Shown piece by piece: positions 2,699 to 23,862 of a DNA stretch of 64,000 nt. The stretch comes from Coptis chinensis (Eukaryota > Streptophyta > Magnoliopsida > Ranunculales > Ranunculaceae). The stretch covers positions 67,011,501 through 67,075,500 of the forward strand of contig CM027381.1 in assembly GCA_015680905.1 (NCBI GenBank). Reading direction: 5' to 3'. A program made the position numbers and the translations under genes. Each line of letters opens with the position of its first letter. The stretch's first letter is position 1. The notes under the pieces are model-generated. The model had not been told where the DNA came from, ran no database searches, and was given only the letters and a program-made list of their open reading frames with translations.

Positions 2699-2801
2699 CA
2701 TAGTACAAAATATCTCGATATATCGCGATATTTAGGGATATCTATCTAGATTTTAGAGAAAGATATATAAATATCACAATATGTTCAGAGATATATACGA
2801 C

Positions 2802-3192
2802 CATAGTACAAAATATCAGGATATGGATATTTATCGATATTCAATTTCTAGATATGTATCGTGGATATATCCCCCTCTTTGGGGATATTTGACATTGTTT
2901 CACATGCAAATATCGTGAATATATCTAAAATATCGACAAATATCATAGATATTGTAGATATTTTTTGATATATCATGATACATTATTTATATTTATTTGA
3001 AATATAATGGTAAATATTAAATAAAATTGTTATATACACAAAATATCACAAATATCACAAATATCGTTGAAATATCACCGATATTTGCAATCGTATATAT
3101 CTCTGAACATATCGTGATATTTATATATCTTTCTCTAGAATCTGGATAGATATCCCAAACTATCGCGATATATCGGGATATTTTGTACTATG
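2802..3192 (+). mobile_element. MITE, catagtac family, copy 1 (391 bp)
   Basis: It begins catagtacaaaatatc and ends gatattttgtactatg, which gives inverted termini of about 20 bp. The interior is very AT-rich, made of 'atatc/gatat' words, and has no ORF. Together with copy 2 it is bounded by the exact direct repeat atatatacgac (2791-2801 and 3616-3626). The intact sister copies show this sequence only once, so it is a true 11-bp target duplication. That length suggests a Mutator-like (MULE) origin, which is inference. Confidence 0.8.
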
Positions 3193-3197
3193 TATAC

Positions 3198-3615
3198 CAT
3201 AGTACAAAATATCAGGATATGAGTATTTATCGATATTCAATTTCTGGATATGTATCGTGGATATATCCCTCTTTGGGGATATTTGATATTGTTTCACATG
3301 CAAATATCGTGGATATATCCAAAATATCGATAAATATCGTGAATATTGTGGATATTTTTTGATATATCATGATACATTATTTATATTTATTTGAAATATA
3401 ATAGTAAATATTAAATAAAATTGTTATATATACAAAATATCGCCAAATATCACAAAATATCCCCAAATATCACAAATATCGCAAATATCATTGAAATATC
3501 ATTGATATTTGCAGTCGTATATATCTCTGAACATATCATGATATTTATATATATTTTTCTGGAATCTGGATAGATATCCCCAAATATCGCGATATATCGG
3601 ATATTTTGTACTATG
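3198..3615 (+). mobile_element. MITE, catagtac family, copy 2 (418 bp)
   Basis: It has the same ends and order as copy 1 and is separated from it by only 5 bp (tatac, 3193-3197). It differs from copy 1 by scattered substitutions and a few extra bases in the 'caaatatcgc' part. Being in tandem within one 11-bp duplication suggests the pair either moved together or formed by insertion of one copy at the edge of the other. Confidence 0.8.
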
Positions 3616-3720
3616 ATATATACGACTACAAATATCGGCGATATTTTACGATATTTTGTATATATAACAATTTTATTTAATATTTACCATTATATTTCAA
3701 ATAAATCTCTACTAGTAGTA

Positions 3721-4371
3721 TAGCCTATAATGATCATGGCCTCTTAAATTCATCCGGGTTTTTTTTTGACGCGTAATACCCTTGATGAATAATAAAATCA
3801 GATGCCTAGATATTTATTAATGAGGACTACTTTGTCTTTTTATGCCTTTATAAATTTTCAGTACCGATATTGTCCTTAAATAAAAATATTGTTTAACACC
3901 TTTAAATGGGAGCAATCAATCATTTCTTGTGGTGATAAATTAAATTTCCAAATCCACGCCACATTTGAATTGTACGCACACCATAAATACAATTTAATTA
4001 CCATAAATAGATAGCATTTAATTAGACGTAATTAGACGTGTAGAAATTGAAAAGACTAAAGAGAGAGAGTACAAAGGGTTCTCAACAACAAAAACAACTT
4101 ACCCCTTGCTTTTCTCGCCTGCTTCTCAACAACCAAAAAAAATTCCAATTCTTCAAGACAATCTCAATTCTTCGTCAAGAACAAACAAAAAAAAAACCAA
4201 TTTTATTATATAGAAATCCCAAATCAAAGTACCTGATGTCTCGATGCTTCTTTCATTTTGTTTTTTTTTTTTTTTTTTTTTTCAATATGTTGAGTTTTAG
4301 ATTGCTTAAGATCCTTTTGTTTTATATTGTTTTGTAGGCTTTTAGTTTTTAATATTTGACTATTGAAGGTT
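3721..4371. other. Helitron 5' region, no recognised gene
   Basis: AT-rich sequence between the Helitron 5' end and the first kinesin exon. A plus-strand reading frame at 4047-4337 is low in complexity (poly-Q/K, then poly-F from a T run near 4260-4282) and resembles UTR more than protein. It may be the leader of the captured kinesin gene, but nothing shows this directly. Confidence 0.4.
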
Positions 4372-5755
4372 TGTTTTGGTATGGACAAACAGGAACAGGA
4401 AAGACCTTCACAATGGAGGGTATTGAGCGAAATCGAGGAGTCAATTATAGGACTCTAGAGGAATTGTTCAAGATTGCCAAAGAAAGGAATGAGACTTTTG
4501 CCTACAACATATCCGTCAGCGTGCTTGAAGTCTATAATGAACATATTAGGGACTTGCTTGCAAACTCGCCAACATAAAAAAAAGTAAATATAACATCATT
4601 ACCTTTAGTGTAAAGTTAAAATTTATCCATTTCACTGGTTCAACACTTAGCAGGCTTAGAATCTGCTGCTAAGTTACAAATTACTCTTTAAGTTATCAAT
4701 AATATCAGTATTGAATTTCTGCCAATAACAGCTGGATTTGGATGTAGGTTGGAGATAAGGCAAGTTTATGAAGGGGTTCATCATGTTCCAGGAATTGTTG
4801 AAGCAAAAGTGGAGAACATAAAGGAGGTATGGGATGTACTGCAAGCTGGAAGCAATGCAAGGGCTGTTGGATATAATAATGTTAATGATCATGAGCATAG
4901 TAGCCGATCTCACTGGTCTATGGACACTCGGAACTTTTATTCTTTTTCTTTTATTTTTTCCTTACAACACATTTCTCTGTTACTTTAGAAGAAAATAAAC
5001 TGATTTTCTACCTTTTCCAACATACTCTGTAATTATCTGGGAGTTGTTATAGGTATAGGTATTTTGGTGCTGCGAAGAAGTTACCCGGTGTTAGAGAGTT
5101 GTTTGAGAAACCGCCTGAGTTAAGGAAGAGGAGGTCTAGGTATGATATTTTTAAAAGGATTGACGCGAGTTATTATGGGTATCGTGATGACGAGGATGGG
5201 ATTCTTGGGAAACTTGAAGGACCTGCTGAAGCTGAGATGCATGCTGCGGCTGTGAAGGAATGGTAGAGGATGGAAAATATCAAGCTAGAGGCTAAGAGAG
5301 CGGTTAAGAGTGGGGAAGTTGTTAATGCTGCGATTATATTGTTTGAAGAAGAGGAAGATGTTGTGGAGGAGGAGAGGAAGGCGAAAGAGGAAGAGAATCA
5401 GAAAGAGCAAGAGTTGGCTTGTAGAGATGGTTAAGTCAAAGAACTTGATAAATGGGGAGTGCACCAATAGCAAGCTTTGGCTTGTAGATTTGGCTGGCAG
5501 CGAGAGGCTTGCAAAGACTAATGTGCAAGAGGAACGACTCAAGGAAGCTCAAAACATCAATAGATCACTTTAAGCTCTGGGTGATGTCATATCTTCTCCA
5601 GCAAACAAAAGCAGCCACATTCCATATAGGTCGCTCTTGCGTAACTTGCTTATTCCGTTGGACTTTATCCGGGCATACTTTATTCTTCCTCCACCACACA
5701 CCATGGGGATGTTGCGAGAATTCAAAGTGACACATCTACTTCAAGATTCATTAGG
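4372..5755 (+). pseudogene. Kinesin-14 motor domain fragment (captured, broken)
   Basis: Kinesin-14 proteins are minus-end-directed microtubule motors. Visible pieces in order: the P-loop YGQTGTGKTFTMEG with NRGVNYRTLEELF and LEVYNEHIRDLL (4372-4587); LEIRQVYEGVHHVPGIVEAK, ARAVGYNNVN and the switch I region SSRSH (about 4747-4914); then MVKSKNL, the switch II region LWLVDLAGSERL and EAQNINRSL (5427-5571), followed by ALGDVIS, SSHIPYR and THLLQDSLG to a GT donor at about 5755. These segments match the plant KIN-14 class that carries 'GVNYRTLEELF'. Damage: an in-frame TAA after LLANSPT, another TAA between INRSL and ALGD, and about 70 extra bases between IPYR and THLLQ. An ISY1 fragment occupies the gap between SSRSH and MVKSKN. 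The stalk and the rest of the motor are missing, so it cannot be functional. Confidence 0.88.
5053..5434 (+). pseudogene. ISY1: ISY1-like splicing factor fragment lying inside the kinesin pseudogene
   Basis: ISY1 is a component of the NineTeen complex of the spliceosome. Reading from 5054: YRYFGAAKKLPGVRELF, KPPELRKRRSRYDIF, RIDASYYGYRDDEDG, KLEGPAEAEM and KRAVKSGEVV, then an acidic EEEEDVVEEERKAKEEE tract. This is the conserved C-terminal half of plant ISY1. It starts right after an AG (5051-5052) that can serve as splice acceptor. It has an in-frame TAG at 5264-5266, where the family has an arginine codon (W*RME instead of WRRME), and stops at 5432-5434 just inside the following kinesin exon. 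The N-terminal half and the final part are absent. Its insertion between two consecutive kinesin blocks makes a chimeric structure. Confidence 0.88.
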
Positions 5756-6812
5756 TAAGGCAAACTATCATACTTATTTGATTGCCTATCCTGCCGCGTC
5801 GAGACGCTAGGAGTCTTCAATTTTTTTTTTATAATTTCTGGGTTGGATGGAGATTGTCGTTTGTGTGCTCAGCTTATGGAGGCTTATTTGTGTAATGGTA
5901 AATATGAAGGTATGTAGTCAATCTTTCATTCATTTTTGTATTTGATGTTTATTCTTTGAATGGTATACATACTATTTGCGTTGGTTGCAAAGAAATTGTA
6001 TTGCCAAGTATTGGTTTGTTTTTGAGAGTTTTAGCAGACGGAGGTACATGTCTTAATATTGTCAAAATGTTACTTCTCAAATTTCAGAAACTTATAGTCG
6101 TATAAAGAAGAGAGAGGCAGATAGTGGGTTTTAGCCTTTTAGGGACAAGTTGATAATGGGTTATACTCCTAAATGGACTGATTTTAAAGGTATGAAACAA
6201 ATTCCAATTAACTTTACAATGATCAAATCAACTACTTGTTGCTTTTGTGTGAGTTTGTCATAACATGCCTAAAAGCTATGCATTTTCATGTTTAGTGCGT
6301 CTCATTGCCTTTAATTTTGTATTGTGAATATGTATTTACAAGAATCGATGGGTTCTTTTTTTGTAAGTCTAAATACCATAAAATGAATAATTTTGAGTGC
6401 TCAACAGGTATTCCGCTTATGGCCATATCTAATTCCTATGGTTATGTGTTTTGAATTAGCATATATGTTTTGTTGCTAACTAAAAAGATTTGGGCTTTCT
6501 AAATGCCTCACAAACATCTAATCCGAGAATCCCTACTGTGGATGCAGGTTTCAATTCTGGAAGGGGAAACCAAGACACAACTCTACATTTCATAAACCTT
6601 ACAAACATGGTAAGAACCTTCATACATGTATCGTGAGCAATACATTATTGAATTTTAAACTTTTTTACTTTAAAATGACATGTTCAATACTTCAATGTGA
6701 TACAGTAATATTGTTTTCTTAATTACAAATAGTATCTTCGTAGTAATACACTTTTAGTTATTGCAAACTATATTTTTGTCTTCCAAAATGTGTTTTCCCA
6801 TTCACTCATAAA
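5756..6812 (+). other. Helitron interior with unassigned exon-like pieces
   Basis: I recognise no family. Exon-like pieces with plausible splice signals are seen: around 5868-5912 (frame giving GLDGDCRLCAQLMEAYLCNG), 6088-6190 (ETYSRIKKREADSG, a stop, then MGYTPKWTDFKG before a GT) and 6549-6609 (after TGCAG, before GTAAGA). They may be a further captured gene, but the evidence is only length and splice-like borders. Confidence 0.3.
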
Positions 6813-7163
6813 ATGGCAGACGTCGAAGCAACCAGAGCAGTAGGAATTATTTTTATAAACTCTTTCTTTCGACAAATAAATTTAGTCAAACAAACTAACC
6901 CATTCAAGTTCAAGCATTTGTGGAGATTCCAGGCCGTATGATAGAAGCTACTGGCAAGTTGAAACATGTATTACTCTAAAAATGAATTAGTGTACTCAAA
7001 TTGTATTCATTTATATTATATTATATTTTAATTTACACTAAATGTATTTTTCAGGTGGTGGCTCAAATGCGAAACAAAGAGACGGAGAAAAAACGTGCTT
7101 TTTTACTAACACTGGAAGAATTACGACCATTGCCCGAGGATACAAATACTTACAAATCTGTTG
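6813..7163 (+). pseudogene. PFD1: Prefoldin subunit 1 fragment (first three exons)
   Basis: Prefoldin is the hexameric co-chaperone that hands tubulin and actin to the CCT chaperonin; subunit 1 is a beta-type subunit. Exon 1 (from ATG 6813) gives MADVEATRA. Exon 2 (6915-6967) gives FVEIPGRMIEATGKLKH. Exon 3 (7055-7163) gives QMRNKETEKKRAFL, LTLEELRPLPEDTNTYKSVG and ends at a GTATGA donor. These match the first half of plant prefoldin 1 (about 125-130 residues). Exon 3 carries an extra leucine codon and a few extra residues at its start, and the exon 1 donor is doubtful. The following exons, with the FVLEP and second coiled-coil parts, are absent, so the fragment ends within the gene. Same strand as the other captured pieces. 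Confidence 0.87.
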
Positions 7164-7681
7164 GTATGATTCAAATATTAGTTCTTGTGATATAAGTAAC
7201 ATTTTTTTCTTTTATGGTTGTGCTTTTACTAAACTAGGATTTGGTTATATGGTTGAGTGTTTTAAGGTTATTTGGAAATATTAGTTAAGAACTAAGGGGT
7301 TGATAGACATATAGTAATTATTTAGGTAATAACTAAAACATATTTGCTGGAGTACAAACACACAAACACACAACATACAGACACAGCACACAGAGACACA
7401 TATAACAATATTGGCCAAGCATATTTGAGAAGGTAGACTGGATGTACCTTTGCATGTTTGTCTCTAATGAAAGTCCTAACATATGGTTGCAAACTTTACT
7501 ATTCACTCAAATTTTGTTTGGAAAAAGATTTGCTTGTATTCTCAAATACAAAAGCCCCTTTGAAGAATTGTTTTGTTGGGTGAGCTAAATTGATTTTAAT
7601 AGTCCTTGGGTACTCTATGACTCTGATATATTTTGGAATTTTTTTTAAAGAAGGAAATTACGTATCTTCGATGGTTTTCAG
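7164..7681. other. Helitron interior, no recognised gene
   Basis: AT-rich sequence containing a CA-rich low-complexity patch near 7357-7405 (acacacaaacacac). It probably includes intron sequence following the prefoldin exon 3 donor and intron sequence preceding the choline-transporter exon. Confidence 0.4.
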
Positions 7682-8645
7682 ATCCTTGAAGCAAGCAGCT
7701 CTTTGCATGTACCTTGGCTTGGCTCTGTTGCTCTTGGTTCCCTAATTGTACCATTTGTCAAATTCCTATGATCTCCACTCGACTCAATTCGCCGTAGGTT
7801 GAAAGGTGCTAATAGGATAGGGAAGCTGGCATCTGGTTCTTCTCGGTGCTGTCTTGGTTGTGTTGGTTGGACAGGAAAATCAGCAAATCACAATGCTTAT
7901 ATAATGGTAATCTTATGCAACAATTCTTTAGCTATAGATATTAAGTAACAAAAATAATTAATAACTATTTTTGGATCAAGTATCTGACCTATGTTGGGTA
8001 AGGATGGCAGGATAGAAAATGATACCCTCTCTGTCTCTGCTTTGTGCACAGCTCATAGACTGTCATAGTAGCAATCCACCATTTGATAGGTCACATGCTA
8101 ATTTACTACAAATGTTCCACTAGCTATTAGTTGTAACTTTCAAATTTTGAGAATATTCTGGTCGTTTTGATTAATCTCTTTAGTCAGGAGAGAAAAGAAA
8201 TGGAAACTGGAAAATAACTACTCCAGCTTTTTATTAAATACAAAATCATAAATTCAATCGGCAGTCTTCATACAAAAGTTTGGATGAAAACCACCATTTG
8301 GTCGCTGTCTTATAGTATGTAGAAACATCATGGGCTGTAGTGTTGATTTTTTCACATCCGCCCAACCTAATTTAGAGTAACTTTTGAAGTCCCTATGTTT
8401 CTTGGTTGATCACTAACTACGTTACTAAATTTTCATCATTTTACTTGCAAATAGCCATTACATGTAAAAGCTTCTTTAGTGCTTCCACACTTGCAACAAC
8501 ATTGATCATAAATAACATTATTCAAATAGGGAAGGTAAATGTAATTGGAGATGTTATTCTCTTTCTCGGGAAATTATGCATCAACCTTTTCAATGTTGTG
8601 TTTGCATTCCTAATGTTGGATACTCATAAATACAATTCCATTATG
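7682..8645 (+). pseudogene. Choline-transporter-like protein fragment (two exons)
   Basis: The CTL/PNS1 family (Pfam choline_transpo) consists of multi-span membrane proteins. Exon A (7682-7906, after TTTTCAG, before GTAATC) reads LGSVALGSLIVPFVKF, a TGA stop, LDSIRRRLK, GKLASGSSRCCLGCVGW and SANHNAYIM. Exon B (8451 to about 8645) reads IAITCKSFFSASTLATTLII, INNIIQIGKVNVIGDVILFL, GKLCINLFNVVFAFLMLDTH, and KY. Order and spacing match the C-terminal membrane region of the plant family. Damage: an in-frame TGA in exon A, and the acceptor before exon B reads ...TTGCAA (8450 is A), so the normal AG is lost. Upstream transmembrane exons and the C-terminal tail are absent. Confidence 0.82.
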
Positions 8646-10880
8646 TACAACCATCAATCAGCTACATAATCCTTAGAACAACTTCTTGAATATTTCACCC
8701 TAATAGCTCTGGCAAGTGCAGGATCACCTGTCTTTGTACCCTATAAGGAAAGGCCATAACGCACACAAGTCTGATCCTTCTCCTCCCATGCACTCCTGTC
8801 CCCTCCCCTTTTCTCCTGTCCCCTCCCATTCATCCCATGTTGTTGTGTGAATGAATATGGAAGATACTGCTTTGCATGGGGATTTGCGGACTTGAACCCG
8901 CTAACTGATATGTTGATCACAATAACTGCTATACACACGAGGATTTTGTCTGCAAATTAAACATGAAGCGAGGACTTATGAGATGTATATAATGACACAT
9001 TCTTATTGTTTTCAAACTTTCAAAGGCAGTTTTCCCGTTTCCTTTTCGTGTGTCAGAATGCCTTCTTTAGCTTGCTGACATTTTCCCTTTTTTACCTCAT
9101 TATTGCTTGAGACAAAGCAAGGGCAGTCGTTTGGAGTCAAAGCATTGAGGAGCACACTCCTGTTGTACCAAACTAAGTATATAGTAACGATGAAGTCAAT
9201 GGGATAAGTAGTTTTTGATGAAAAGGTGTGTCCTACCAGTCAGTCCATTATTGTTTTTGTAGTTATTTTGTATATATAATTGCTTGCATTATTGATTACT
9301 TTTAGGAATATTGATTTATTAAAAAAAAATATGTTTCGTTCATAACAACGACACTGTTTGATTATGTGATTCAATTCTAACTCTATCAAAGTCGTAGGCT
9401 ATTTTGTGACAACAATGAAACAAGCGAAGTTCACACACTTTAACGGCTGGAAAGTGAATTATTGTCAGCTGTGATGAGATATGAGAATACACTTTCATAG
9501 CACTTTTAACTTTGGAGAAAACTTGACGAATTGAAGAAGAAAGCGTATAAACCCCTAGGGCTGTTATTTCTACTTGGTCGGAATATAGGAGCGCCTACTA
9601 TTATATATTAAATCTTTATTGCTATTTTGGTTAATTATTGGTGTTCATTGGATACATCTAGAACAAGTTAGAATATATATATTGTTTGTGTAGGTTCAAC
9701 ACTCTGCCCAAATGTTGGTGAGGTACTGAACTTCCTCGAGTTGGCGAGAACCACCTCTCTGAGATCATGGGTTTTGATTTTTGAACCTTATGTTTTTATT
9801 CACTGTGTGGAAGTGTTATTTATACATTTACAAAATATTTAACATATCATTTTTAGTCGTCTTTTGTTTTTCTCTTTGAGATTGTTCTTCATGATCTCTC
9901 TTTTAAAAACTATCTGCATTTTTTTCCCACAATAAATGACATTTGGAGTTAAAAACCATTGAAAACAATAGTTGGAGGAGAGAACCATTAATTAGAGAAA
10001 GAAGTATAGATAGTTTGCTTGGGGAGTCTAGAAGATTTGACCATAGTTGGCTTAGGGAGTCCTGAAGTTACAATTTAAATATAACAAATTGTTTTTGAAT
10101 TTTTTTTTGTAATTTTGGTTTTAATCCTTTGGTGTTTGGTGTATGTAGAAATATGTCATAACACCAATACGTATCTTCCTCGAAGTCTATCATAACACTG
10201 TCATCAGATATGATTTATTAATCAATAGAATTTAGTGATTTACACATTCTCACAACTGACTTTGATGAGTTGTTTTAAACACTAATTTTTACCATATATA
10301 TTTGAGGCAATTGTTTGCTTGGGAAGTTCTTAAGTTACGATCTATTTATATTAAATATGTTGTGTAGAGCTATGTGCGTGCTTACACATACGAACAACAA
10401 GACAACTTGCTGGGAAGGTTTTCCAGCCAAAATGTCTGAGGAACCTTCATACTACTGGTGAGTGATTACCATTCTCTATGTATTATTACACCTATTGAAT
10501 ATCATGATCATCTTCAAGTAACACATTTTCTTCACAATTGGTTATGTGCTAGATTGACTCAATCATTGCTCTCTTATAAGTGGATTTCACTGGTAGTGGT
10601 GAGCTTGCAGAGCGCCAGGTTAGCTCATAAACCACTATTGCTTGCATAATTTCTTATTTCTGGCATATGATATTTATGATTTCCATTTAGACAAAGAAAA
10701 GATAAATACAGTTATGTGGTTTTTCCCATGTCGTTAGTATTTGTGAGATCTCGAAGTATTCTTAGGTTCGAGGCTTTTAATTTTTTTCTCTGTAGGTAAT
10801 GAATCATTTTGAGTTAATCATATGTCATTGGATAACATATTGTTCTCTTAATTTGAGACACACGTGTTTATTTTATCTGC
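8646..10880. other. Helitron interior, no confidently recognised gene
   Basis: About 2.2 kb without a gene I can name. A short exon-like piece near 9691-9775 (after GTAG, frame STLCPNVGEVLNFLELART) and another at about 10403-10454, ending at a GTGAGT donor, could belong to captured genes. The second may be an upstream exon of the CRCK-like kinase that follows, but this is only suggested by position. Confidence 0.35.
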
Positions 10881-10881
10881 A

Positions 10882-11520
10882 GTGGAGAAGCCTTGAAGGG
10901 CAAGGAGAAAGATTTTGCTTGGTTCAGAAACAAAAGAGTCCAAAAACGGTGATGTTGGTCACAAAGGCCACTCAACAAACGACAACCATGATTATGTTTC
11001 TTTCTTAGAACAAAAAATAATGGGTATTGCAGTTCTAGGAATGTTCATTCTATGTTGTGGTTTGCTTTGTCCATGCTTTTGTTCGAAAAGGAAAGAAGCT
11101 TCCCGAGTTGTTCTCGAACCAAGTTCAAGTGAGTCAAAACTGTTATCACTATAGGCATTCAATTTTTAGGTCCATGTACTTCTAAATCCCTCAAACATTT
11201 GCGAATGATGAAAAAATGGTGAACAACATACCGTTGTGGCTTTGTATAATGGTCCTCTCTGTTGTTATGCTACAAACTTGTTAGTGCTTTTGATTCAAAT
11301 GGTCTTTGATTGATACTTGATACTAGGTATCATCAATGTATAAAGAAACTAACTCAATTAAGGCATACATTATCGGTTATTGGTACGTGAATGATGTATT
11401 TAATTTCCATTAATAGGACCCATTAGAAGAGGCTGATATGTGACAGGTAACTGAGTGGTGATTCCATCAGGGATCCCTTTCCCATTATCCGTGCACATTT
11501 TATTGTGATGTTTTAGGATA

Positions 11521-11557
<37 letters not shown>

Positions 11558-12014
11558 AGTGTTCATACGTTTTATGTTAACATTAGACTAACTAATGTTG
11601 ACTCTTATTGGATTAACTTGGGAGAGCATCTTTATTTGCTAATGAACTATCAAATGTTGCAGTGGATTCTGTTCCCTCTGCGGAATTGAACTCTGCTCCT
11701 GAAAATATTCCTGACAGGCTTGACACCCCACTCCGAGGGCCTAGAAGTCCACTTCGGATGCCAGCAGCTCCACTCCGAGTCCCCCCAAGCCCTTCTCGAT
11801 TCACAATGTCCCCGCAAATGAAAAGAATTGGATTTGTACATCTTAATTTAAATCAAGTTATGAAATCAACGGAAAACTTTCTCACCTTTACTACAAATAG
11901 GTGAAGGGGGTTTTGGAACCGTCTACAGGGCTCAGTTGCAAGATGGTCAGGTTGTCGCCATAAAATGTGCATATTACATGGAGTTCAATGTTGCAGTCTA
12001 CATGACTAAACAAG
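10882..12014 (+). pseudogene. CRCK-type receptor-like cytoplasmic kinase fragment
   Basis: Calmodulin-binding receptor-like cytoplasmic kinases have a short N-terminal region, one hydrophobic segment in some members, and a Ser/Thr kinase domain. Exon A (10882-11128, after CTGCAG, before GTGAGT) contains the hydrophobic segment MGIAVLGMFILCCGLLCPCF followed by KRKEASRVVLEPSS. Exon B (11662-12014, after TTGCAG, before GTAAAA) contains LRVPPSPSRFTMSPQMKRIG and VHLNLNQVMKSTENF, the usual juxtamembrane region of CRCK3-like proteins. Then, after a +1 frameshift at about 11880, come the glycine loop IGEGGFGTVYRAQL and QVVAIK with the ATP-binding lysine. Nothing beyond the N-lobe (HRD, DFG) is present. 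The frameshift and truncation make it a pseudogene. Confidence 0.85.
11523..11553. repeat. Poly(T) run of 31 bases
   Basis: An uninterrupted T run lies in the intron between the two CRCK-like exons. It is a simple repeat and likely variable between individuals. Confidence 0.95.
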
Positions 12015-13330
12015 GTAAAATTATCGATATGAAACTTGGATGTCTATTGATATTATGTGCGAATAATTTAAACTAATGCCTGTAACTCAATCACATAATG
12101 TTAGAAATTACATATTTGAATGGTCACAGTCATTGTTGACCAATGTAGTGGTATGTTCATATATGATCCAAAGAAACTAGAAAAGGGTGTGTCCTACCTC
12201 ATGTTGCCATAGTTAAGTTAATGTTTCTTAGAAAGGGCAAAGGTGAACAATGTGATGCAAAGTGTTCGACTCTCAAAATCTGCCCGAATCTAAAGCTATA
12301 TCCTCATACTTGCATTATTTATCCTAAAATTTATAAGCTTACCATCATGACCGGAGCAATAGGAACACCAAATGCAACTATTAATTGAAATCATTGTGCT
12401 TAGAGGGGGTGGCCTTGGTGATCTAATTATGCTAATCAAGAGTTATATTACATATTTATCTTCAATAACTTTCCCATATACTAACTCCCAACCCTCTAAT
12501 TGTATCAATATACTACTTTTTTAGCTAATTTCCTTATTGCCTTAAACCTTATTGCCTTAGCAAGATCCTCATAGGAGTCAATTATGGGATTTATGCAGTG
12601 TAACCTATCCAATTGTAGTTTATGTTAAATGTGAATTGTTAAACTCATTCCAATGTGAATTAATCTTGGTTCTGTCCCATGAGGCCATTACATTAATATT
12701 GATCTCTTCCTTGTGAGGTGGTGATGTAGAATCTGATTATGTGATAACCCAATTTGCTAACATAAAATTGACCAAGGCCTATTATCACTTAAACGGTTGA
12801 AGCACCAAGTTAAAGACCCATAACCCAAGTACCCAACCAATATGGTTAAGTTCACCACGAATAAATTAGACGGTTCCAAAAGTAAATTTGTTTTGTGACT
12901 AAATTAAGTTTTCGTTGTCTATGTTCTATAGGACATGTCATCATGCCAACCGACATTGCGAAATACCAGACCCAATGTCCTCGGTTAAATATAAGCAATT
13001 AGTCAAGACTACCTTTCCAGTTCAGGCTCCTCAAGCGTGCCCAATTTACCTAAGGGTTGGATACTATTACATAGATGCTTTTGATGCACTAACCTTTTAT
13101 CTTTGTTGTTTGCAACGTGCACTTACTAGAATGAGAGGCTCAAAGTACATGTTATTTGGAGCTATACTTAAAAGTTTATTTCTTAGTTATGTATGGAAAT
13201 CAAATAGGAATAAAGCTTCATTAAATTCAAAATTTAAACGGCTGTCAATGTGTCTGCTAGGACATAATGTCAATTGTAAGTGTGCTCACCCAAATTATGC
13301 TTACATTTTTCGGCAAGTTTTGTTTAACAT
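12015..13330. other. Helitron 3' region, no recognised gene
   Basis: AT-rich sequence after the kinase fragment. A plus-strand frame of 147 codons (12915-13358) ends on the TAG of the Helitron CTAG terminus. It has no motif I recognise and an unremarkable composition, so I do not call it a gene. Confidence 0.4.
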
Positions 13331-13641
13331 CGTGTGCATAGCACGTGCATCTTGCTAGTATAAATAATGTATCATGATATATCAAGAAATATCTACAATA
13401 TCCACGATACATGTCGATATTTTGGATATATCCACGATATTTGCATGTGAAACAATATCAAATATCCCCAAAGAGGGGGATATATCCACGATACATATCC
13501 AGAAATTGAATATCGATAAATACCCATATCCTGATATTTTGTACTATGCATGTTAGTGTAATTCACTCATCAACCATTTTGAATGTGTTAACATGTGGCG
13601 ACAGGCTAGCCAAAATAGACTTCACTTTTAACTAGGGGCAT

Positions 13642-13992
13642 TGTAGTGGTGAGGTCCGCGACATCAAGGGTCAAAGGTCAAGGGGGGCCGATGCAAGCCG
13701 CAGTAGTAGGAATCAGGGAGTAGTAGATCCCTTTGAAGGGAGGGCCTGAAGTGAGATAATCAGAAGACGCGGGAGCCGAGTAGCATACCGCGGAATGTAA
13801 AGGTACAGTGAAAACCCTACACGTGGGAAGTGGAGAAGCGATGGATGGGAGAGCAGGTGGACGACTGTAATATGAGAACGGGAGTATAAAAAGAACAGTG
13901 ATAGAGAGAGAAAGGGAGGTCTTTCATTCCAAAGGGGTGAGACTTAGTGTGAGAGGAGGGAGATTGTATGTAATAGTGTCTGAGCTCCAACA
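13642..13992 (+). repeat. Tat-A 5' LTR
   Basis: It begins tgtagtggtgaggtccg and ends gctccaaca. A TATA-like 'gtataaaaag' near 13883 fits an LTR promoter. The matching 3' copy starts at 23878. Confidence 0.9.
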
Positions 13993-13994
13993 TT

Positions 13995-14012
13995 TGGCGC
14001 CGTTTGTGGGGA
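13995..14012 (+). promoter_or_regulatory. Tat-A primer binding site
   Basis: tggcgccgtttgtgggga lies 2 nt after the LTR. It starts with TGGCGCCG, the complement of a tRNA 3' end (CGGCGCCA) of the type used by Tat and Athila elements, often attributed to tRNA-Asp or tRNA-Arg; I do not decide which. Confidence 0.8.
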
Positions 14013-14035
14013 CCGAGATCTAAGCAGTAGTAGAT

Positions 14036-14770
14036 ATGACAATAGGAGTAAAGAGAGGGGTAGGAAGACCAAGGAAGGTGGTGCTTGTAGAGGAGGAGGT
14101 GGAATCGGTGGGGAATGATGGGGGAGAACAAGAAGGAGAAGAGACGGTCGCGTCGACATTAGAGGAAACAAGACAGTTAAAGGAGGAAGTAGCAAGGTTG
14201 AGGGAAGAGAATGATGGACTGCAGAGGGAGAGGGAGACTATAGAGGAATCGGAGAGAGAGGCGGCAGAGATGGAGATAGAGGAGGAAGGGAGGCCCAACT
14301 TGGGGGAGAATGTGGTGCCGGGACTCACGAGGGAGCAGGTGAAGGAGATGATCGCCAGTGATTTGAAAGCAAGCTTGGAACAAGTGAAGGGCTTAAGTGG
14401 AACGACGAACCAAGTAGTGGCGGGGTTGAACCGTAACCCATTGGCGGATGCAATTTGGAGGGCGGAGGTCCCAAAAGCGGTTCAACCAGCCCAGATTTGA
14501 GAGATATGATGGGACAGGAGACCCGGCGGACCACATCCACCACTTCCGACAGCAGATGCCGCTGTGGCAGGAACCCAAATACGACGAACTGCGGTGCATG
14601 ATGTTCCCCGCAAGCTTGAAGGGGGAGCCTCGGATTGGTACTATCGGTTGCCTTCGAAAAGTATAAACAACTTCCAAGAGTTAGAGCAAGCTTTCGTGGA
14701 CCATTTCACACACGGAAAAAGGCATGATATCATCCCCCAACGTAGAGACGGAGGACTACGAGTCGGATGA
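14036..14770 (+). pseudogene. Tat-A gag, N-terminal part
   Basis: Gag forms the virus-like particle. The first frame (14036-14500) starts MTIGVKRGVGRPRK, is rich in E and K, and includes a coiled-coil stretch (ETRQLKEEVARLREENDGLQ). After a frame change the capsid region reads FERYDGTGDPADHIHHFRQQ and LRCMMFPASLKG. After another it reads SINNFQELEQAFVDHF, the usual plant gag order. Two frameshifts break it, and the rest of gag is displaced by a further insertion at about 14771. Confidence 0.8.
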
Positions 14771-16190
14771 GAAAATTTTTATGCACTGGAAAAATTTGGA
14801 CGAAAAGGACTACAAATGATTGGTATTTGATTGCCTTCCGGTAGAATGAGATCGCGAAACAAGATTTAATCAAAAAATATCCAAAGGTATGAGGATACCA
14901 GAGAGATGAAGGCTGGAAGACCATTAACCCTCGATTATGCCTCTTGTTTAGCCATCTTAGTGGACTAATAGTGTTTATAAGTTGTGTTTTAAGATTCTAC
15001 GGTGAAAAGAGTTTTGTAGAATATTAGAAAATGGGGTAAAAGCGAAGCAATTCGGGCATTAAGGATCACATGGGAGGCCCGTGGACAATCATGGAGAAGG
15101 CGAGGAATTGGAGATGCTAAAGATGCGACTTGGACCTATTTTAAAGTCTATTTGGAAGCCCAAGAATTTTGTTTGGACCAAAGCCCGCAAAAGAGGATAG
15201 AAGGATAGAAGCGAGATTCAGCTTAAGGGGGCGATGTATTCACGCATGAATAATGCGTCGAGGCATGAATCGACTGTAGCTAATTCCTTCCGGTTTTGAA
15301 GACGAAGTCGGACTCTGGAAGAAGTCTATTTGTATTAGGAAACAAATGACGGTTTGGAATCTTCTAGAGGAAAATAGAAGACCTAAGTGCCTCATGTAAT
15401 TGGGCTTTATTCACTTATAATTTGAAAAGAGAGAGATTAATAATAAAAGGACGGTTTTAACTAGTGATAAATTAGTCTTTCTAGTCTTATGTTCTTCAAC
15501 TCTTCTTCTTCTTGTTCTTCCTTCTTTATGGAAGGCTAATCTTCTCCTTCAAGGGAGGAGATAAAGCCGCTAAAGGTTTAATGATTCTTACGGTTCATGG
15601 TGTTCTTGACATTAGTTCTTTATGTTTGTAGTTATTAGTTCCATTTATATCCGGAGGGAATGGAAAATATAATATCATGTATGTTCTTTACCTTCTAGTA
15701 GTGTAATTCTTTAGAGTTAGAGATTCTTTGTGTTGCCTTAGAGGGGTAGCGGGGAAGGCTACCTAGGAGAAGTGTTTTGCCTTAAGTTTTCATTGAATGG
15801 TCGCTGCCCTAGGAAGTACCGGAGATGTTGCTCTTTTGAATGGCTGCCCGAGCTTACATAAAAAGAAAGAAGGGAATAACCTTAAAGAAATTGAAGTCCG
15901 GATGGAAAATAGAATTGTAGTCTACTTGCCTTATCGAGAAAAAGTGGAGCCGCTCTTGAATTCCCTCTCTTATAAATTCTCAACTTTAGTTAGTTTAGCT
16001 TAGTTTAGCATTAGAATTCAATCTACAATATTAGTTTTAATCCTCAAACCCCCTTTTCCAGTCATCCTTCCGTAAAGCAAACCGCATAATAATCCTTTAC
16101 TTATTGGGGATAATTAGTATTGATGCATATCACCGATCATCATCTATCTACATCAATACCATGAGAAGAGTGTCGAACGAATCTTACTCT
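14771..16190 (+). mobile_element. Retroelement fragment with LTR-like part inserted in Tat-A gag
   Basis: Tat-A gag is interrupted here. At 15221-15234 a purine tract (ttaagggggcga) is followed by tgtattcacgc at 15235, which looks like a polypurine tract plus the start of an LTR. The following ~0.9 kb has no ORF, as expected of an LTR. The part before it (about 14771-15220) would be the 3' internal end of that element. I see neither the matching second LTR nor a clear target duplication, so borders are approximate. Confidence 0.5.
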
Positions 16191-16200
16191 CCTTTGGAAA

Positions 16201-16647
16201 ATGGCTAGTACAAAGGATGATAGGGAAGGGTTCTTGAAGGAGTTTACCAAAGGGGTTCTTGACCAAAAAACACAAAAAGGGAAAGAGGAGCGGGCGGATG
16301 TAAACCAAGGGAGAATACTGGGTACCATAAATGTCATATTCAGTGGGGAGATTTTGAGCCACAATGCCCATAGAGATAGGATAAGGTGGACGGCTAGTAT
16401 ATAGTAGGTTAACGAAGAGTCAGGTTACTCGCAACCCGCACCATGGTCCGCGATGGGGAAAGGAAGCATAGTGTTTACTAACGCGGACTTGAAAACGGTC
16501 GACTCCCCGCACGAGGATGCATTGGTAATCACAGTGGCAATGGGGAATTACATGGTGAAAAGTGTGTTAATCGATTATGGCAGTGTAGTGGATTTGTTGT
16601 TCATAGGGACGATGGAAGAGATGAAGATAGGCGAGGAGAGCGGTTGA
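16201..16647 (+). pseudogene. Tat-A gag end and aspartic protease
   Basis: The gag-protease linker reads GTINVIFSGEILSHNAHRDR. The protease part then reads IVFTNADLKTVDSPHEDALV and KSVLIDYGSVVDLLF, the Tat retropepsin arrangement. The active-site D-[ST]-G is altered to DYGS where the lineage has D-x-G-S-S. A stop lies between the two parts and another at 16645. Confidence 0.75.
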
Positions 16648-17025
16648 GGCCTTAAGTGGACAAATTTATGCGGGTTCACCGTGAAGCATGACCGAGCCTC
16701 TAGGGGAGCTCCTGCTGCTAGTGACCACGGGACTAGTGACAGTGTTCTCTTGATTCAAGGTGGTGGACGCAAGTTCACAGTTTAATGCCATCCTTGGGAG
16801 GCTGTGGATTCACGAGATGAAGGCGATACCATCTACGTATTACCAGGTGATCAAATTTCCCACCCCGACGGGGATGCATGAAGTTCGCGGTGATCAAGTG
16901 ACAGTGAGGAATAGTCATTAGGGAACAGTGAAGAGGTTGATCAGAGGGGACGAAGGGGAAGCCTCAAAACCTAGAAAGAGGTAGGCATAGCAATTACAGT
17001 GTGCCTCTGCGGAAGTAGAGGCAGA

Positions 17026-18010
17026 GATGTCGGTGGTACCAAAAACATTGGATGAGATTGAGACAATAAATGTGGGGACATGGGAGGAGGAGAAGTTTAC
17101 CTCAGTGGGATCTAATTTGCTGGAAGAGTGGAAGAACAAATTGATATAGTTCCTCTCAGAGAATAAGGATGTCTTTGCTTGGACAATTGAGGAGATCATG
17201 AGGTTGGATCCAGAGTTCGCATGTCACCGGTTGCACATGAGGGAAGACGCTAAACCAATGAGACAGAAAATGCGCGGCGTCAGGCCAAAGTATGCAGAGG
17301 GAATCCGTGAGGAGGTTGCAAGGTTAAAAGGAGCGGGCATAATATGAGAAGTAGAGTTCATGGACTGGTTGTCCAACATCATCGCGGTACCTAAAAAGAA
17401 TGGAAAAGTGCGTATGTGCGTCGACTTTACGGATGTCAATTCCGAGTGTCCTAAAGACAACTATCCAATGCCGCGGGTGGACGAGTTAGTGGATCGAACG
17501 GCGGCATTCAAGATTTTCTCTTTCATGAACGCGTCGATGGGATATAACCAGGTCGCGATGTATGGACCGGATCAGGAAAAGACATCTTTCATAGTGGGGT
17601 GGTACCTATTGTTACACTAGAATGCCATTCGGTTTGAAGAACGATGGGGCCACGTTCTAGTGACTGGGGGAGAAAAAGTTTGAGAGCAAAATCCGGAAGG
17701 GAATTGAGATATATATCGATGATATGGTGGAAAATAGCATATCAGAAGAGGAGCATTTGGAGGGACTGAGGGAAACGTTCAGCATATTGCGGCGCATAAT
17801 TTGAAGTTGAACCCAGAGAAATGCACGTTCGGGGTGACCACAGGGAAATTTCTGGGTTACATTGTGACTCATTTGGGAATAGAAGCCAATCCCGAGCAGA
17901 TAAGAGAACTAGTAGAGATGTCGTCTCCTCAGAATGTTAAAGAAGTATAGAGGCTAGCAGGAAGGGTCACGACATTAAATCATTTCATATCTAAGTCATC
18001 TGACAAGTGT
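17026..18010 (+). pseudogene. Tat-A reverse transcriptase
   Basis: RT copies the element RNA into DNA. Visible: FAWTIEEIMRLDPEF, LSNIIAVPKKNGKVRMCVDF, NSECPKDNYPMPRVDELVD, a GYNQV region and the catalytic YIDD at about 17710-17725. In-frame stops (for example after NKLI, after KGAGII, and near 17617) and frameshifts after the fingers region show it is dead. Confidence 0.85.
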
Positions 18011-18016
18011 AGGCCA

Positions 18017-18535
18017 TTGTATCGGCTATTGAGAAGGATGCCAGACTTTGTGTGGACGGCGGAATGTGAGGAAACTTTTCAAGAATTAAAGAGCTATTTG
18101 GGTAAGGTGCCTTTGCTATCGCGACCTGAACAGGGGGAGAGGCTGTACTTATATTTGGGAGTTACAGAGTACGTTGTAAGTTCGGTTCTCGTCCGGGTGG
18201 TGGACAAGGTTGGAAAACCGGTTTATTTCCATAACAAAACCTTAATGGACACGGAGACCCGATACAGTAAAGTGGAGAAATATGCCCTGACACCAATATT
18301 CTCGGCATTAAAGTTGAAGCCTTACTTTGAGGCACATTCATTCAGTAGTGGTGGTGACAAACCTACCCCTCAAGCAAGCGCTGAAGATGGAAAAGTCTGG
18401 GAGAATGCTCAAATGGGCGGTGATGCTAAGTTCCTATGAAGTGCAATATCATATAAGAACCACGGAAAAGGCACAGGCAGTAGTGGAGTTGTTGGTAGAG
18501 TTCCAGCGGAGGACCCCACATGGAGCGAGGAGATA
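18017..18535 (+). pseudogene. Tat-A RNase H (retroelement type)
   Basis: It reads MYRLLRRMPDFVWTAECEET then FQELKSYLGKVPLLSRPEQG, then a degraded LYLYLGVTEYVVSSVLVR and KPVYFHNKTLMDTETRYSKV, the normal connection and RNase H region after gypsy RT. A frame change at about 18320 leads to LKWAVMLSSYEVQYHIRTTE. Confidence 0.8.
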
Positions 18536-18539
18536 GTCA

Positions 18540-19163
18540 TGGAGCCTGATCATGAGGGGGAGCCAGACAGGATGGATCCCTGGGATAAAAGGAATGGGTG
18601 GAGAGTGTTCATGGATGGCTCAGCAACAAACGCGTGCATCGGAGTAGGCATTATGGTGGTTACTCCAGATAATGACCGGATTGAGTTGTCCATGAAGCTC
18701 GGGGTTTGTGGCCACAAATAATGAGACAGAGTATGAAGCTGTGATAGCGGGATTGGGAATGGCAGAGGATTTGGGGGTGGATGAGTTAACGGTGTATTAA
18801 GATTCTAACTTAGTGGTATGTCAGGCAAACAGAGGATTCGTCGCTAGATGTGCTCGAATGGCCAAATACTTGGAGATTGTGCACCGCAAAGCAGCCAAGT
18901 TCAAAAAAGTCAGATTCATACATTTGGTCCGCGGGGAGAACTGGCATGCAGATGCTTTGGCATATGTCGCGGCCGTAATGCCGGGGTCAGAGGAAAGAAC
19001 CATAAGAGTAAGGAGGTTGGAGAAATCAAGCATCGAGAGGGTGGACGAAGTATGTCAGGCTGCAGAGGGGGTAGGAGGATGGATGGACCCTATTAAACAC
19101 TTCTTATTAGGAGGGGAGATGATGGACCATAAAGAAAGAAGGAGGTTGGAACAAACTTCATGA
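18540..19163 (+). pseudogene. Tat-A second RNase H (archaeal-type, aRH)
   Basis: Elements of the Tat lineage carry an additional RNase H between the first RNase H and integrase. Here WRVFMDGSATNACIGVGIMV is followed by NETEYEAVIAGLGMAEDLGV and, after a TAA (near 18798), DSNLVVCQANRGF and ENWHADALAYVAAV. D, E, D and the final D of the RNase H fold are visible. Its presence assigns the element to Tat. Confidence 0.82.
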
Positions 19164-20303
19164 AGATACATTCTGATAGAAAGAGAGATGTACCATAAGA
19201 ACTTTGATGGATTGCTGTTGAGGTGTTTGGGGCCGAGCCTGGCACAAGAAGTATAAGCAGAACTGCACGCAGGAGACAACTATGGAAGTCATTCAGCAGG
19301 AAGAACAACTGCACACCAACTGTTGATGCAAGATTATTTCGGCCTCACATGAAAAGGGACACGGTGGAGTTTGCCAAGAGGTGTGGGAAATGCCAGAGGT
19401 TTGCTCAGCTAATATTTGCACCAGCAGAGCCGCTGCACAATGTATCCAGTCTGTGGCCGTTCGCCATGTGGGCCATGGATATTGTGGGTCCGCTGCCGAT
19501 GGCCAGCGGTACGAGAATATTCATGCTGGTCGCTACTGATTATTTCACCAAGTGGATAGAGGTCGTAGCTCTACAGCAGGTAAAGGAGGAACATGTGATT
19601 AAGTTTTTGTGGGAGAACATTATCTGCAGGTTTGGACTACTGCATTCCATTATCACGGACAATAGAACATAATTCACGAGGTCGAAAGTGAGAGAGTTCT
19701 TGCAGACCTATAACATGAAACAGGGATTTTCGGCTCCTTACAACCCAAAGGGTAATGGGCAGGCCGAATCATCTAGCAAAACTATCATGAACAATCTCAA
19801 GAGAAAATTAGAGGATCGGAAAGGAGCGTGGGCCGATGAGCTGAGTCATATGTTATGGGCTTATCGTACTACACCGCAGACCTCCACTAAAGAGACTCCT
19901 TTTTCATTGGCATACGGTATAGAGGCAGTGATCCCTTCGAAGATGGTGGTATCCACGATGCGCACGAAAGCGCTCGAAAGGGTTTTGAACTGGGGCATAC
20001 TGGCTAGAGATTTGAACTTGGCTGAGGAAAAGAGGGACACCGCGTGTATCAGGCTAGGAGAATATCACAGACACTTGCAAAGGTAGTATAACAAGTGGTT
20101 GAGGCCGCGGCAGTATCAAGTGGGAGATTTCGTGTTCCGAAGAGTGACTCCAAGCACCAAGAAAGTAAAGGATGGAAAGTTGGGGCCAAATTAGGAAGGG
20201 CCCTACCAGGTGGAGGAAGTTGGAGGGGCTGGCAACGGACCATGGAGGGAAAACTGATAGATAGACTATGGAATGTAAGGATGTTGAAAAAGTTTTATGT
20301 TTG
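19164..20303 (+). pseudogene. Tat-A integrase
   Basis: The zinc-binding end reads RCGKCQRFAQ (19378 onward). The catalytic core shows MDIVGPLPMASGT with the first Asp, SIITDNRT with the second Asp, and NPKGNGQAESSSKT with the Glu (D,D-35-E). Then come [20 protein letters not shown] and FSLAYGIEAVIPSKM, typical of the lineage. A TAA follows DNRT (19671), with further stops at 20084 and 20192. Confidence 0.87.
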
Positions 20304-20402
20304 AATGTACTACCAGTCCGAGACAAGGGACTTGGCCTGTTTGCACATACATAATACAACGACACTTTTGGGAAATGAGCATACTGAATTAACACAGACA
20401 AA

Positions 20403-20835
20403 TCCAACTTAGGGGCAAAGGGTTGCCAATGGCAGGCTCGGCGGCCTCACAGAGATAGCAGGGGGGGGGGGGGGGTTGAGCCCTTCAGCGGACAACATGT
20501 CCGAATCAAACTCAGGGGCAAAGAGACTTGCCCCTAGCAAGCTCATCAGCCTCAGAAAGATAGCGGGGGGGATGAGGCCTTCACGGACAGTATGTCCAAA
20601 TCAAACATAGGGGAAAAGAGACTTGCCCCTAGCAGGCTCATTAGCCTCAGAGAGACAGTGGGGGGGGGGGGATGAGCCCTTCAGCGGATAGCATGTCCGA
20701 ATCAAACTTAGGGGCAAAGAGATTTTCCCCTACAGGCTCGTTGGCCTCAGAAAGACATCGAGGGGGAGGAGCCCTTCACGGACATCATGTCCGAATCAAA
20801 CTCAGGGGCAAGACAAGTTGCCCCCATCAGATTTT
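20403..20835. repeat. G-rich tandem repeats, ~100-bp unit, ~4 copies
   Basis: Units begin near 20431, 20539, 20637 and 20735 with 'aggctc.t.agcctcag', followed by a run of 7-15 G, 'atgagcccttcagcgga', 'atgtccgaatcaaac' and 'aggggcaaagagacttgccc'. Such tandem arrays after integrase are usual for Tat elements. The longest G run is at about 20461-20475. Confidence 0.9.
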
Positions 20836-21149
20836 GGGATCAGGAGGTTCGGCCTACATGATATTCGAGGCCAGAAAAGACTAATGGGGAAGCAAGAGAG
20901 AAAGGCAAAGGAAAACATCATCCACAGTTGATGAGGAAGAACAAGAGCAGAGAGGATAAAAGACATAACTTAAGCATAAAAAGGGAAGAAAACATCCATA
21001 GTATCAAGTTCACTTACAAAGATCACATATACAACACATCAAAAACTTCTTCAGTAAAGATAAATGCTAGAGTTTAAACATCATAAAGAGACAAATCATT
21101 TCAAGGCGGAAGGCCAAAACATATTCAAAGGATGTCGGAGGGTGTTCCT

Positions 21150-23434
21150 AGAGAAGGGTCATTAACAACAGGGGTGTCCGCAGTTGTGAGTATGGCTTCA
21201 GTACTAGTAGCCGCCGCAGCCTCTTTAGGGTGCTCCTCCATTTCATTCAGCCCCTCGTTTCCCAAAGCATCTTCAGCTTGATCCGCAGCCAGAGTGGGTG
21301 GGTTTTCCGGAAGGAGGTGTCCTTCCTTGAGAAGCCGAGCGTGCTCCGCCTATATCTTTTTAGCCACCCGCTTATCTACTAAAGCCTTGTAATGGGTTTG
21401 AAAGGCGGCCATGTCCGCCGCATGTTGAGATGCGATAGCGGCGAGAGCTTTCCTGATGTTGTTGGAGGAGTGTGGCGCGCTGTTGACTTAGGCGGTCGTT
21501 GACGGTGTTCATATATTTCCCATGGTTGGCTTCCGCAGTCCTCAGCTCGTCTTGAGCCCGAAGTTTGGCTATATTCGTTGCCTCGAGCTCCAACTGAAGG
21601 CGGGTGCAGGTCGCTTTTAGGCCATCGCGGCCGTGCCATTCCTTATCCAGAGCCTCCACCTTGTTCCGGGCACCGAAGAGACTGCGAATCATATACGAGA
21701 TATGAAAAAGACTCACCTGAAGGGAAAAGAGACAGCGAATCAGAAGGGAAATGCGGGAGAAAAAGAATATGGGGCATAGTAAAGTACCTTCTCCCAGTTC
21801 ATATATAAGGAGGTTCGGTGCTACTCAAAGGTCCCTCCTTCCGCATAGGCCATGTCTTTTGGCAGGTAGGAGCCATAGAAGATAGAGGAAGCTACTGCGG
21901 ATTCTCAAGGGCAGAGTCCGCGATAGTGACTTTGCGACTGCGCACATTAAAGGTCGGGGCGAACACGACAAGGGTGACATCGCGGTCAGAGGAGGAGGTT
22001 CGTCTCTTTGCCTGGCTGACGGGTAGACATAGCAAAAGCCTCCTATTCAGCGGCCCGGACAATAGGAGCCAGTTCGTCGGACGCAGTGGTTCTTGACCGC
22101 TTGCTTGGCAGCCCATCAGTGGGTGCAGCCACCATAGAGGGAGAGACCTCTATTACTTCATCTTCATCATCACTTTCAAACAACTTCATCTTGGAGAGAT
22201 CCATGTCTGCGGAGGGAGAGAGCGGAGGAATGTATTGATCTTCCCAGGTGGCAATGGATTTGTAAGAGGGGAGAGGTTCTCGGTCGGCTGGAAGGAGAAG
22301 GTCGCTGTGTACCGGTCACGATAGAGGTAGAGGAGTCTCCCCGAGGCGGTGCCGAAGAAGTGGGCGGGAATGCTTTTTGGGAGGAGGTGATGCCCTAGGT
22401 TTCCGTTCTTTAGGAGGGGGTGGACGATAAAAGGGCGCAGCATAATCAGAGATATTGTGAAGCAGCGGAGACTCTAGCAGAGGGGTGCCAGTGGTAGGGT
22501 GAATGTTCAGACGATCAGCTTGTGCAGGACCAAGATTGCGAAGCCTATCGAAAATAGGACAGATAGTGCCGGCATGTATCCTCGATTTAGAATCGGGTCG
22601 CCAACCTGCAAGGAAATACAACCGGGAGAATGTTAGTTTGCGGAGTCAAGGTCAAAAGAGACAGAGTCAGCAACGGCACTCACCACTAGATTGGAAAATG
22701 AGATGATTAAGTGTCAGCCCAGTGGGGAGGTCCGCGGGCAAGAAATTCCCGGAAACATACAGCAGATAGTGGTGCCACTGTTTATCAGACGTGGTGATGC
22801 GGAGTAAGAAGGATTTCTTTTAGGGATGGACACAAAAGGATTGGTACCCCACGCCAACATCTTTGGTACTCTTCTTTATGAAATATTGGGAAACAATGTC
22901 GCGGCTTGTTAGTTTGGGATCACCAGTTCTGTTATAGTAGTTCGGGGCATACATTACTCTCCAGAAATTGTCGATGCCTTGGCAGGGAGGGATATTGAAG
23001 TGATTGCATACCTCCACATCCAATAAAGTGATGGGGAGCCGCAGTCCGGCAACAATCTAACCTACTGACAGTACTAGGAACCCGGGCCGCGGTGAAACTA
23101 AGTGGGGGTAATGGGTGACCGAGGGCACGTGCTCTATCAGAATGTCAGCTGGAATTCCGTAGGCAACCCTAATTGCACTCAAATTAGGTCTATGATATCT
23201 AGATGGCGGCGGTAATGGGAGGATGAATTGGCAAGAGGTGGACGGGGCCGCCGTAGTAGCCACGGGAGGTGGAAAGGCCATCTCGGTAGACCGAGAGGAG
23301 GAAGAGTCGGCGGAAGGAGAGGGGGAAGGGTTCTCGGAGGCCGTCGCCGATATCGAGGGAAAGATGAACAGATTTGAAGAAAAGAAGAAGATACTAACAG
23401 TTGCAATGTAAAGAGAGGGAAGAAGATAATGCAA
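21150..23434 (-). pseudogene. Tat-A antisense ORF ('putative gypsy-type transposon' family)
   Basis: It lies on the strand opposite to gag-pol, downstream of integrase. The N-terminal part reads MAFPPPVATTAAPSTS (start near 23281) and YGIPADILIEHVPS. Then, after a stop and frame change, come AGLRLPITLLDVEVCNHFNI and YFIKKSTKDVGVGYQSF, the pattern I know from antisense ORFs of Grande-like elements (Pfam 'Transposase_28'-like; function unknown). The C-terminal part (21716-21372) is a coiled coil: LKATCTRLQLELEATNIAKL. The middle (22200-22620) is proline-rich. Several stops break it, and intron use cannot be excluded. Confidence 0.65.
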
Positions 23435-23862
23435 TCAATAAGATAAGGAGAACAAGGACAAAGAGAAATGAACCTAAACTGGAGCCCAAAGGTGACGAAA
23501 TCGGACCGGAGCAAATGCCAAGGGTGGAGGATTCAAGTGAGTGAAGAGTGAAAAGGTTTTGGAGATGGAGAGAGGTATAGTGGGAGAGGAACTGAATGGA
23601 GAAAATGAGGGAGAAGAGAGGAGCGGGAGTTTAAATAGTGCGGGGCAAAACCATAATTACCCAGGTGCGGAAACCAAAGGGACGGCAGAGGAACCGACAG
23701 GAGATCAACACGTGGAGGTTCAGAACCCGAGGGGGTGCAAAATGGGCCGCGTGATGAGTGTCTTGCAGTGCACACAAATACCGATGAAGGGTCAAAAGAT
23801 ATATCCAGGTAAAAAAGGAAAGCAGGTTCTCAACCTCGGGCCTATTAGTAAAGGCAATGGAA

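Follow-up and report, generated by a model that had tools for sequence, protein, structure and literature searches.

A putative non-autonomous Helitron of Coptis chinensis with pieces of at least seven genes, two of them nested in others

We analysed a stretch of 64,000 nucleotides of Coptis chinensis DNA (contig CM027381.1; this whole stretch is the window below, and positions are those of the window), and its plus-strand segment 3706..13358 (9653 bp, ~9.65 kb) is very probably a non-autonomous Helitron that has captured pieces of at least seven genes step by step, with nesting of pieces by break repair, re-joining of array parts at several loci and ongoing decay. Its ends can be read to the base against two uninterrupted copies of the host repeat, and two of the captured pieces lie inside two others. 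Since these nested captures are accompanied by similar chimeras at other loci, the order of events and the junctions between pieces become directly testable by comparison of Coptis DNA.

Ends of the element and its empty sites

The element opens with the T at 3706 (5'-TCTCTACTAG) and closes with the G of a CTAG-3' at 13358, and so has the 5' TC and 3' CTRR (here CTAG) that identify a Helitron; it is bordered by an A at 3705 and a T at 13359, with no target duplication. Maize Helitrons have the same TC/CTRR ends and A/T site; a further maize consensus, TCTMTAYTA, found no match in our literature search. Joining the two flanks gives the 19-mer CAAATAAATATAAATAATG, the empty site, which occurs exactly twice in the window (minus strand, 2981 and 3375) within repeat copies that align straight across the insertion point when the window is compared with itself. 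The right flank (13359-13548) is 94.7% identical to 2991-2802 and 95.3% to 3385-3198, and the left flank (3661-3706) is 100% identical to 3036-2991 over 46 bp. Hence the first-pass annotation of this DNA, which had proposed TC and CTAG ends at an A/T target for this very segment, was exact in its coordinates, and the joined sequence, whose absence from sister repeat copies it had named as a refutation, is present twice. In the host site itself, AT-rich units recur ~396 bp apart in a small array (2699-3705 and 13359-13548); they are rich in GATATTT and occur in both orientations.

No Rep or helicase domain was matched by Pfam at E up to 1 in the six whole frames (stops read as X), and because of this the element looks non-autonomous. 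Rfam gave no match in the window at its gathering threshold. Pack-MULE and CACTA transposons were considered as candidates and rejected, there being no target duplication at the empty site and, by eye, no mutual inverted repeats at the ends.

Several points weigh against this assignment or against parts of the history that we build on it. An earlier claim counted a hairpin among the Helitron ends. Helitrons are expected to have a GC-rich one ~10 nt before the 3' end, and a candidate is indeed present at 13331-13345 (five pairs including one G-T; -4.8 kcal/mol), but its strength was overstated: its z is -0.97, 34 of 200 shuffles fold equally well or better, and a strict scan for perfect stems misses it (0 of 56 CTAGT sites on the plus strand). 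Within the window neither element end has a second copy, and the two other TCTCTACTA sites share only the first 11 (17910, minus strand) and 9 (33754, plus strand) bases of the element. Among the captured pieces, the joined DMC1 exons match RAD51 too, with DMC1 ahead (25 PDB sequences: 8 DMC1, best 1.6e-12, and 17 RAD51, best 6.5e-10). As for related loci, these are known as predicted proteins, models of which may skip or mis-join DNA, and the ISY1 grouping described below hangs on one residue that only these two share, in a tree with poorly supported deeper branches. We call the element a Helitron because of its ends and empty site, not because of its hairpin.

Captured gene pieces and their order

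Seven donor pieces, all on the plus strand, make up the cargo: kinesin, ISY1, a piece that we call X, prefoldin 1, choline-transporter-like (CTL), DMC1 and a CRCK-type receptor-like kinase, six of which belong to recognised families (Table 1). Their exon-like parts sum to 2789 of the 9653 bp. Pfam searches of whole frames found Isy1, Rad51, Prefoldin_2, Kinesin and an overlapping Microtub_bd on the plus strand and no match on the minus strand (E up to 1), and single-frame scans added Choline_transpo and the first part of a kinase domain. The first-pass annotation had named five donors (kinesin, ISY1, prefoldin 1, a choline-transporter-like gene and a CRCK-type kinase), all supported by Pfam or protein matches, and was right in placing them on one strand; its count of at least five fell short, however, as it overlooked DMC1 and X as well as the nesting of two pieces. 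Introns are kept and, by our reading, most borders are GT/AG (the exceptions being the acceptors of CTL exon 2, CAA, and of prefoldin exon 2, which is unclear), which bears out its further claim of capture from genomic DNA.

The nested order is seen in the domain profiles. Kinesin profile positions run 78-145 and 151-204, are interrupted by ISY1 and go on with 210-259 and 280-302, and Rad51 positions run 97-148, are interrupted by CRCK and go on with 164-222. Thus the kinesin piece encloses ISY1 and the DMC1 piece encloses CRCK, each insert sitting in what would be older element sequence, as expected of filler DNA, and after the inserted piece kinesin resumes ~5 and Rad51/DMC1 ~15 profile positions short. 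The outer pieces (kinesin, DMC1) would then be the older ones.

With regard to the single pieces, KIFC3, which we take to be a kinesin-14, was the best PDB match of kinesin piece 1, the only kinesin piece searched against PDB. The 87-bp stretch between the later motor parts is missing in P0138 and P0159, the two Coptis proteins spanning this point; a GT...AG intron reading is possible, and its GC content is 48% against 35% for the element. It may be inserted DNA or else an intron left unspliced, two options that protein models cannot separate. Piece X has no named parent gene, Pfam giving no match and PDB a best match at E 0.39. For X, a protein search at E up to 10 (proteins of ~153-488 aa) returned 46 matches, of which 43 are choline-transporter-like by Pfam and three are Coptis models. 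For prefoldin 1, Prefoldin_2 was matched at 2e-5 with one exon (below the Pfam curated cut-off) and at 3.6e-6 with three manually joined exons (just below it), PDB matches of the exon being weak (best 0.096). Choline_transpo matches had E values of 0.01 and 1.4e-5, both below the cut-off, and 1.8e-11, and the CTL piece matches plant choline-transporter-like proteins down to 7.7e-42.

Between CTL and DMC1, positions 8651-10366 gave no Pfam match in selected or whole frames. PDB searches with the three plus-strand frames of 8660-10890 found only DMC1, a meiotic recombinase, and this in one frame (7/7 matches at E up to 0.1). The kinase piece holds the start of a kinase domain only (Pkinase 0.0011, below the cut-off), and its read-through has a match at 4.4e-43 to a plant calmodulin-binding receptor-like cytoplasmic kinase 3.

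Decay is evident in six of the seven donor pieces, which carry stops (two in kinesin, others in ISY1, X, CTL, CRCK and DMC1) or frameshifts (CRCK, DMC1). Prefoldin 1 has neither, and one additional codon relative to its related protein model P0138 (see below). Because six of seven pieces are broken in this way, a long chimeric protein from the window copy seems unlikely. Separately, an open frame at 12903-13355 (151 aa) was dismissed as unremarkable: it lacks a Pfam match, and of 200 dinucleotide-shuffled versions of the element, 9 have one at least as long.

Table 1. Element, insertion site and captured pieces in the window (P numbers are predicted C. chinensis proteins described in the text)
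Feature	Position	Strand	Evidence
Paralogous empty site 1, CAAATAAATATAAATAATG	2981..2999	-	window self-comparison
Paralogous empty site 2, CAAATAAATATAAATAATG	3375..3393	-	window self-comparison
Interrupted host repeat, left part	3661..3705	+	inside 46-bp 100% match
Putative non-autonomous Helitron, TC...CTAG, between A and T of AT-rich host repeat	3706..13358	+	ends, empty sites, no Rep/helicase
Kinesin motor exon piece 1, stop near end	4359..4583	+	PF00225 2.1e-23; PDB KIFC3 2e-16
Kinesin motor exon piece 2	4746..4913	+	PF00225 3.6e-7; 87% to P0001 residues 1-52
ISY1 (splicing factor) piece with one stop, flanked by kinesin pieces 2 and 3	5052..5413	+	PF06246 6.1e-23; PDB ISY1 1.5e-17; P0001 94%
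Kinesin motor exon piece 3, one stop	5413..5632	+	PF00225 4e-13
87-bp stretch between kinesin motor parts	5633..5719	+	absent from P0138, P0159
Kinesin motor last piece, THLLQDSLG	5720..5756	+	PF00225 3.5e-4
Piece X, exon-like ~5835-5909, 6088-6189 (one stop), 6547-6609	5762..6609	+	first part in P0159, third in P0138 and P0159
Prefoldin subunit 1, exons 6813-6839, 6914-6964, 7057-7165	6813..7165	+	PF01920 3.6e-6 for joined exons; P0138
CTL, exons 7681-7906 (one stop), 8451-8650 (acceptor CAA)	7681..8650	+	PF04515; plant CTL proteins
DMC1 piece before CRCK, exons 10367-10455 (frameshift), 10548-10618 (stop)	10367..10618	+	PF08423 1.1e-8; DMC1 residues 190-246
CRCK-type receptor-like kinase, exons 10883-11128 (stop), 11662-11966 (frameshift)	10883..11966	+	protein match, P0167/P0168 alignment
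DMC1 piece after CRCK, exons 11976-12012, 12130-12305 (frameshifts)	11976..12305	+	PF08423 1.4e-6; DMC1 residues 256-314
Weak 3' hairpin CGTGT-GCATA-GCACG, 9 nt before CTAG	13331..13345	+	folding vs shuffles
Interrupted host repeat, right part	13359..13548	+	94.7%/95.3% matches

Related chimeric gene models in Coptis chinensis

Three protein searches (the best 120 of 580 matches at E up to 0.001, all 46 at E up to 10 and all 44 at E up to 1) brought up six predicted proteins of C. chinensis that have pieces in common with the window. Five of these are plainly chimeric and are located on at least four contigs; with the sixth, P0166, the models occupy at least five (97-125 Mb), P0001 and P0167 falling on contigs of equal length. 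P0001, first among the matches listed, joins kinesin and ISY1 in 176 aa without a stop, with the same kinesin-ISY1 fusion as the window and the same non-ISY1 tail. P0138 and P0159 both combine kinesin, X and prefoldin 1, the prefoldin part of P0159 being recognised by its match to the window and not in the Pfam output. P0167 (ribonucleotide reductase, Nudix and CRCK) and P0168 (ribonucleotide reductase and CRCK) top their match list; the window yielded no piece of ribonucleotide reductase. P0166 (IFM89_009575) has a CTL piece of ~40 residues amid other sequence, with a Pfam value of only 0.075. That piece adjoins unrelated sequence and a stretch resembling a SAC phosphatase, and may possibly mark another multi-gene capture.

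The CRCK pieces are of particular use. Those of the window, P0167 and P0168 all read NFLTFTT(D/N)R and then meet a stop or the protein end, and the other plant kinases that we aligned (4/4, from 42 other matches) read NFSP and continue to GEGGFGTV. This shared frameshift suggests that the three most likely descend from one broken ancestral copy. In a tree of 20 ISY1 pieces (the window, P0001 and 18 chosen by hand from 119 others listed), the window piece clusters with that of P0001 (support 0.90), and Aquilegia is next to them (0.74); this placement and the six models agree with the Coptis origin of the DNA. Compared with the C. chinensis models, the window shows a divergence of several percent or more, and may thus represent another locus or cultivar.

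Taken at the level of predicted proteins, parts of the array thus seem to recur at several loci with different partners, presumably in a Helitron setting there too. Our data also suggest that IFM89_005880, 003199, 023320, 039160 and 028618, listed as predicted genes, are perhaps transposon-borne chimeras and not real genes.

Capture mechanism, rival explanations and known systems

How Helitrons capture genes is unsettled between end bypass and filler DNA (PMC6544945). Nesting as found here fits internal break repair better than read-through at the 3' end, because simple 3'-end extension makes no nested pieces. We envisage an element that depends on a rolling-circle Rep/helicase supplied in trans from elsewhere and that would have picked up genomic DNA pieces of at least seven genes in steps; ISY1 and CRCK would have been placed into pieces already aboard, by break repair copying host DNA as filler. 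Parts of the array, seen as gene models at several genomic loci, would then have been multiplied and re-joined there, probably as Helitrons, and the pieces are decaying, most likely without a working protein. More tentatively, and with somewhat less than even confidence, we propose a lineage that grows from inside, where later captures enter earlier ones, broken modules such as the frameshifted CRCK pass between copies, and at least nine donors (ribonucleotide reductase and Nudix included) leave a nested, datable record of break repair.

A rival scenario keeps the Helitron but has end bypass, a model described in PMC6544945, add each piece at the 3' end, with nesting arising from later rearrangement or recombination between copies. 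CRCK has ribonucleotide reductase as its neighbour in P0167 and P0168 and is flanked by DMC1 parts here, so pieces may indeed be re-joined. Addition at the end, however, does not account for the profile positions lost where kinesin and Rad51/DMC1 resume, and we regard this scenario as unlikely.

Less probable again, and given little credence by us, is a second round of transposition, in which smaller Helitrons (or transposons of another type) entered the kinesin and DMC1 pieces with ISY1 and CRCK as cargo. Plant elements commonly insert into one another, and an A/TC is found at the start borders of ISY1 (5035) and CRCK (four places from 10748 to 10875), albeit too short a motif to tell on its own. 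Yet no CTRR occurs near the resumption points of kinesin (5353-5430, 78 bases) or DMC1 (11906-11990, 85 bases), which speaks against smaller Helitrons as carriers, and coding sequence was lost at each junction.

To our minds an even fainter prospect is a young chimeric gene under selection, kinesin-ISY1 for example, carried by a Helitron family. NCBI records do list the chimeras as predicted proteins and P0001 is free of stops, but in the window copy ISY1 is broken by one stop and kinesin by two, and most of the remaining pieces are damaged as well. An ordinary gene cluster or segmental duplication, with which the retained introns would agree, is scarcely credible and largely refuted here, since the pieces are fragmentary, mostly broken and in two cases nested, and two host repeat copies lack the whole block to the exact base.

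Apart from the element, the window holds other repeats. A complete-looking LTR retrotransposon occupies 39346-54339, with 1.47-kb repeats 95.6% identical, TG...CA ends, AGTAC on both sides and minus-strand frames that look gag/pol-like by eye. Adjoining the Helitron, 13634-24230 has two direct repeats of ~360 bp (93.9%), with the primer-site-like TTGGCGCC after the left copy, and encloses frames pol-like by eye; it is perhaps a degraded LTR retrotransposon. Two 91% copies of a 683-bp MITE-like sequence, with ends TGTAAGGG... and ...CCCCTACA, lie at 26924-27606 and 55362-56045.

Among the titles listed from the open-licence literature searched, none describes this element or gene set. The C. 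chinensis genome papers (PMC8166882, PMC8172641) put repeats at ~62% of the genome, and no word beginning with Helitron was counted in either.

Among known systems, Pack-MULE and Pack-TYPE elements carry host gene pieces as well and have terminal inverted repeats and target duplications, whereas neither feature is seen in the window element. Closer in mode are the Hel1A exemplars of Spodoptera frugiperda, where pieces were added stepwise inside the element; in that report (PMC6544945), the authors take nested pieces to argue against end extension and hold that internal addition excludes end bypass and supports filler DNA. For these insect elements, in distinction to ours, source loci and junction matches of 2-13 bp were shown. 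That multi-gene capture is documented in maize, as the first-pass annotation had it, is confirmed by PMC2575219 and PMC13317346. The gene-capturing non-autonomous Helitrons of maize, with 44 captured genes in PMC2575219, are alike in carrying pieces of several genes, with several exons per gene and with captures partly common to copies that keep different portions of one capture. Here, by comparison, the host belongs to the Ranunculales, the gene set is another, and two pieces are nested in earlier ones, making this a new case of a known phenomenon, multi-gene capture, in an early-diverging eudicot and with a clear nested order.

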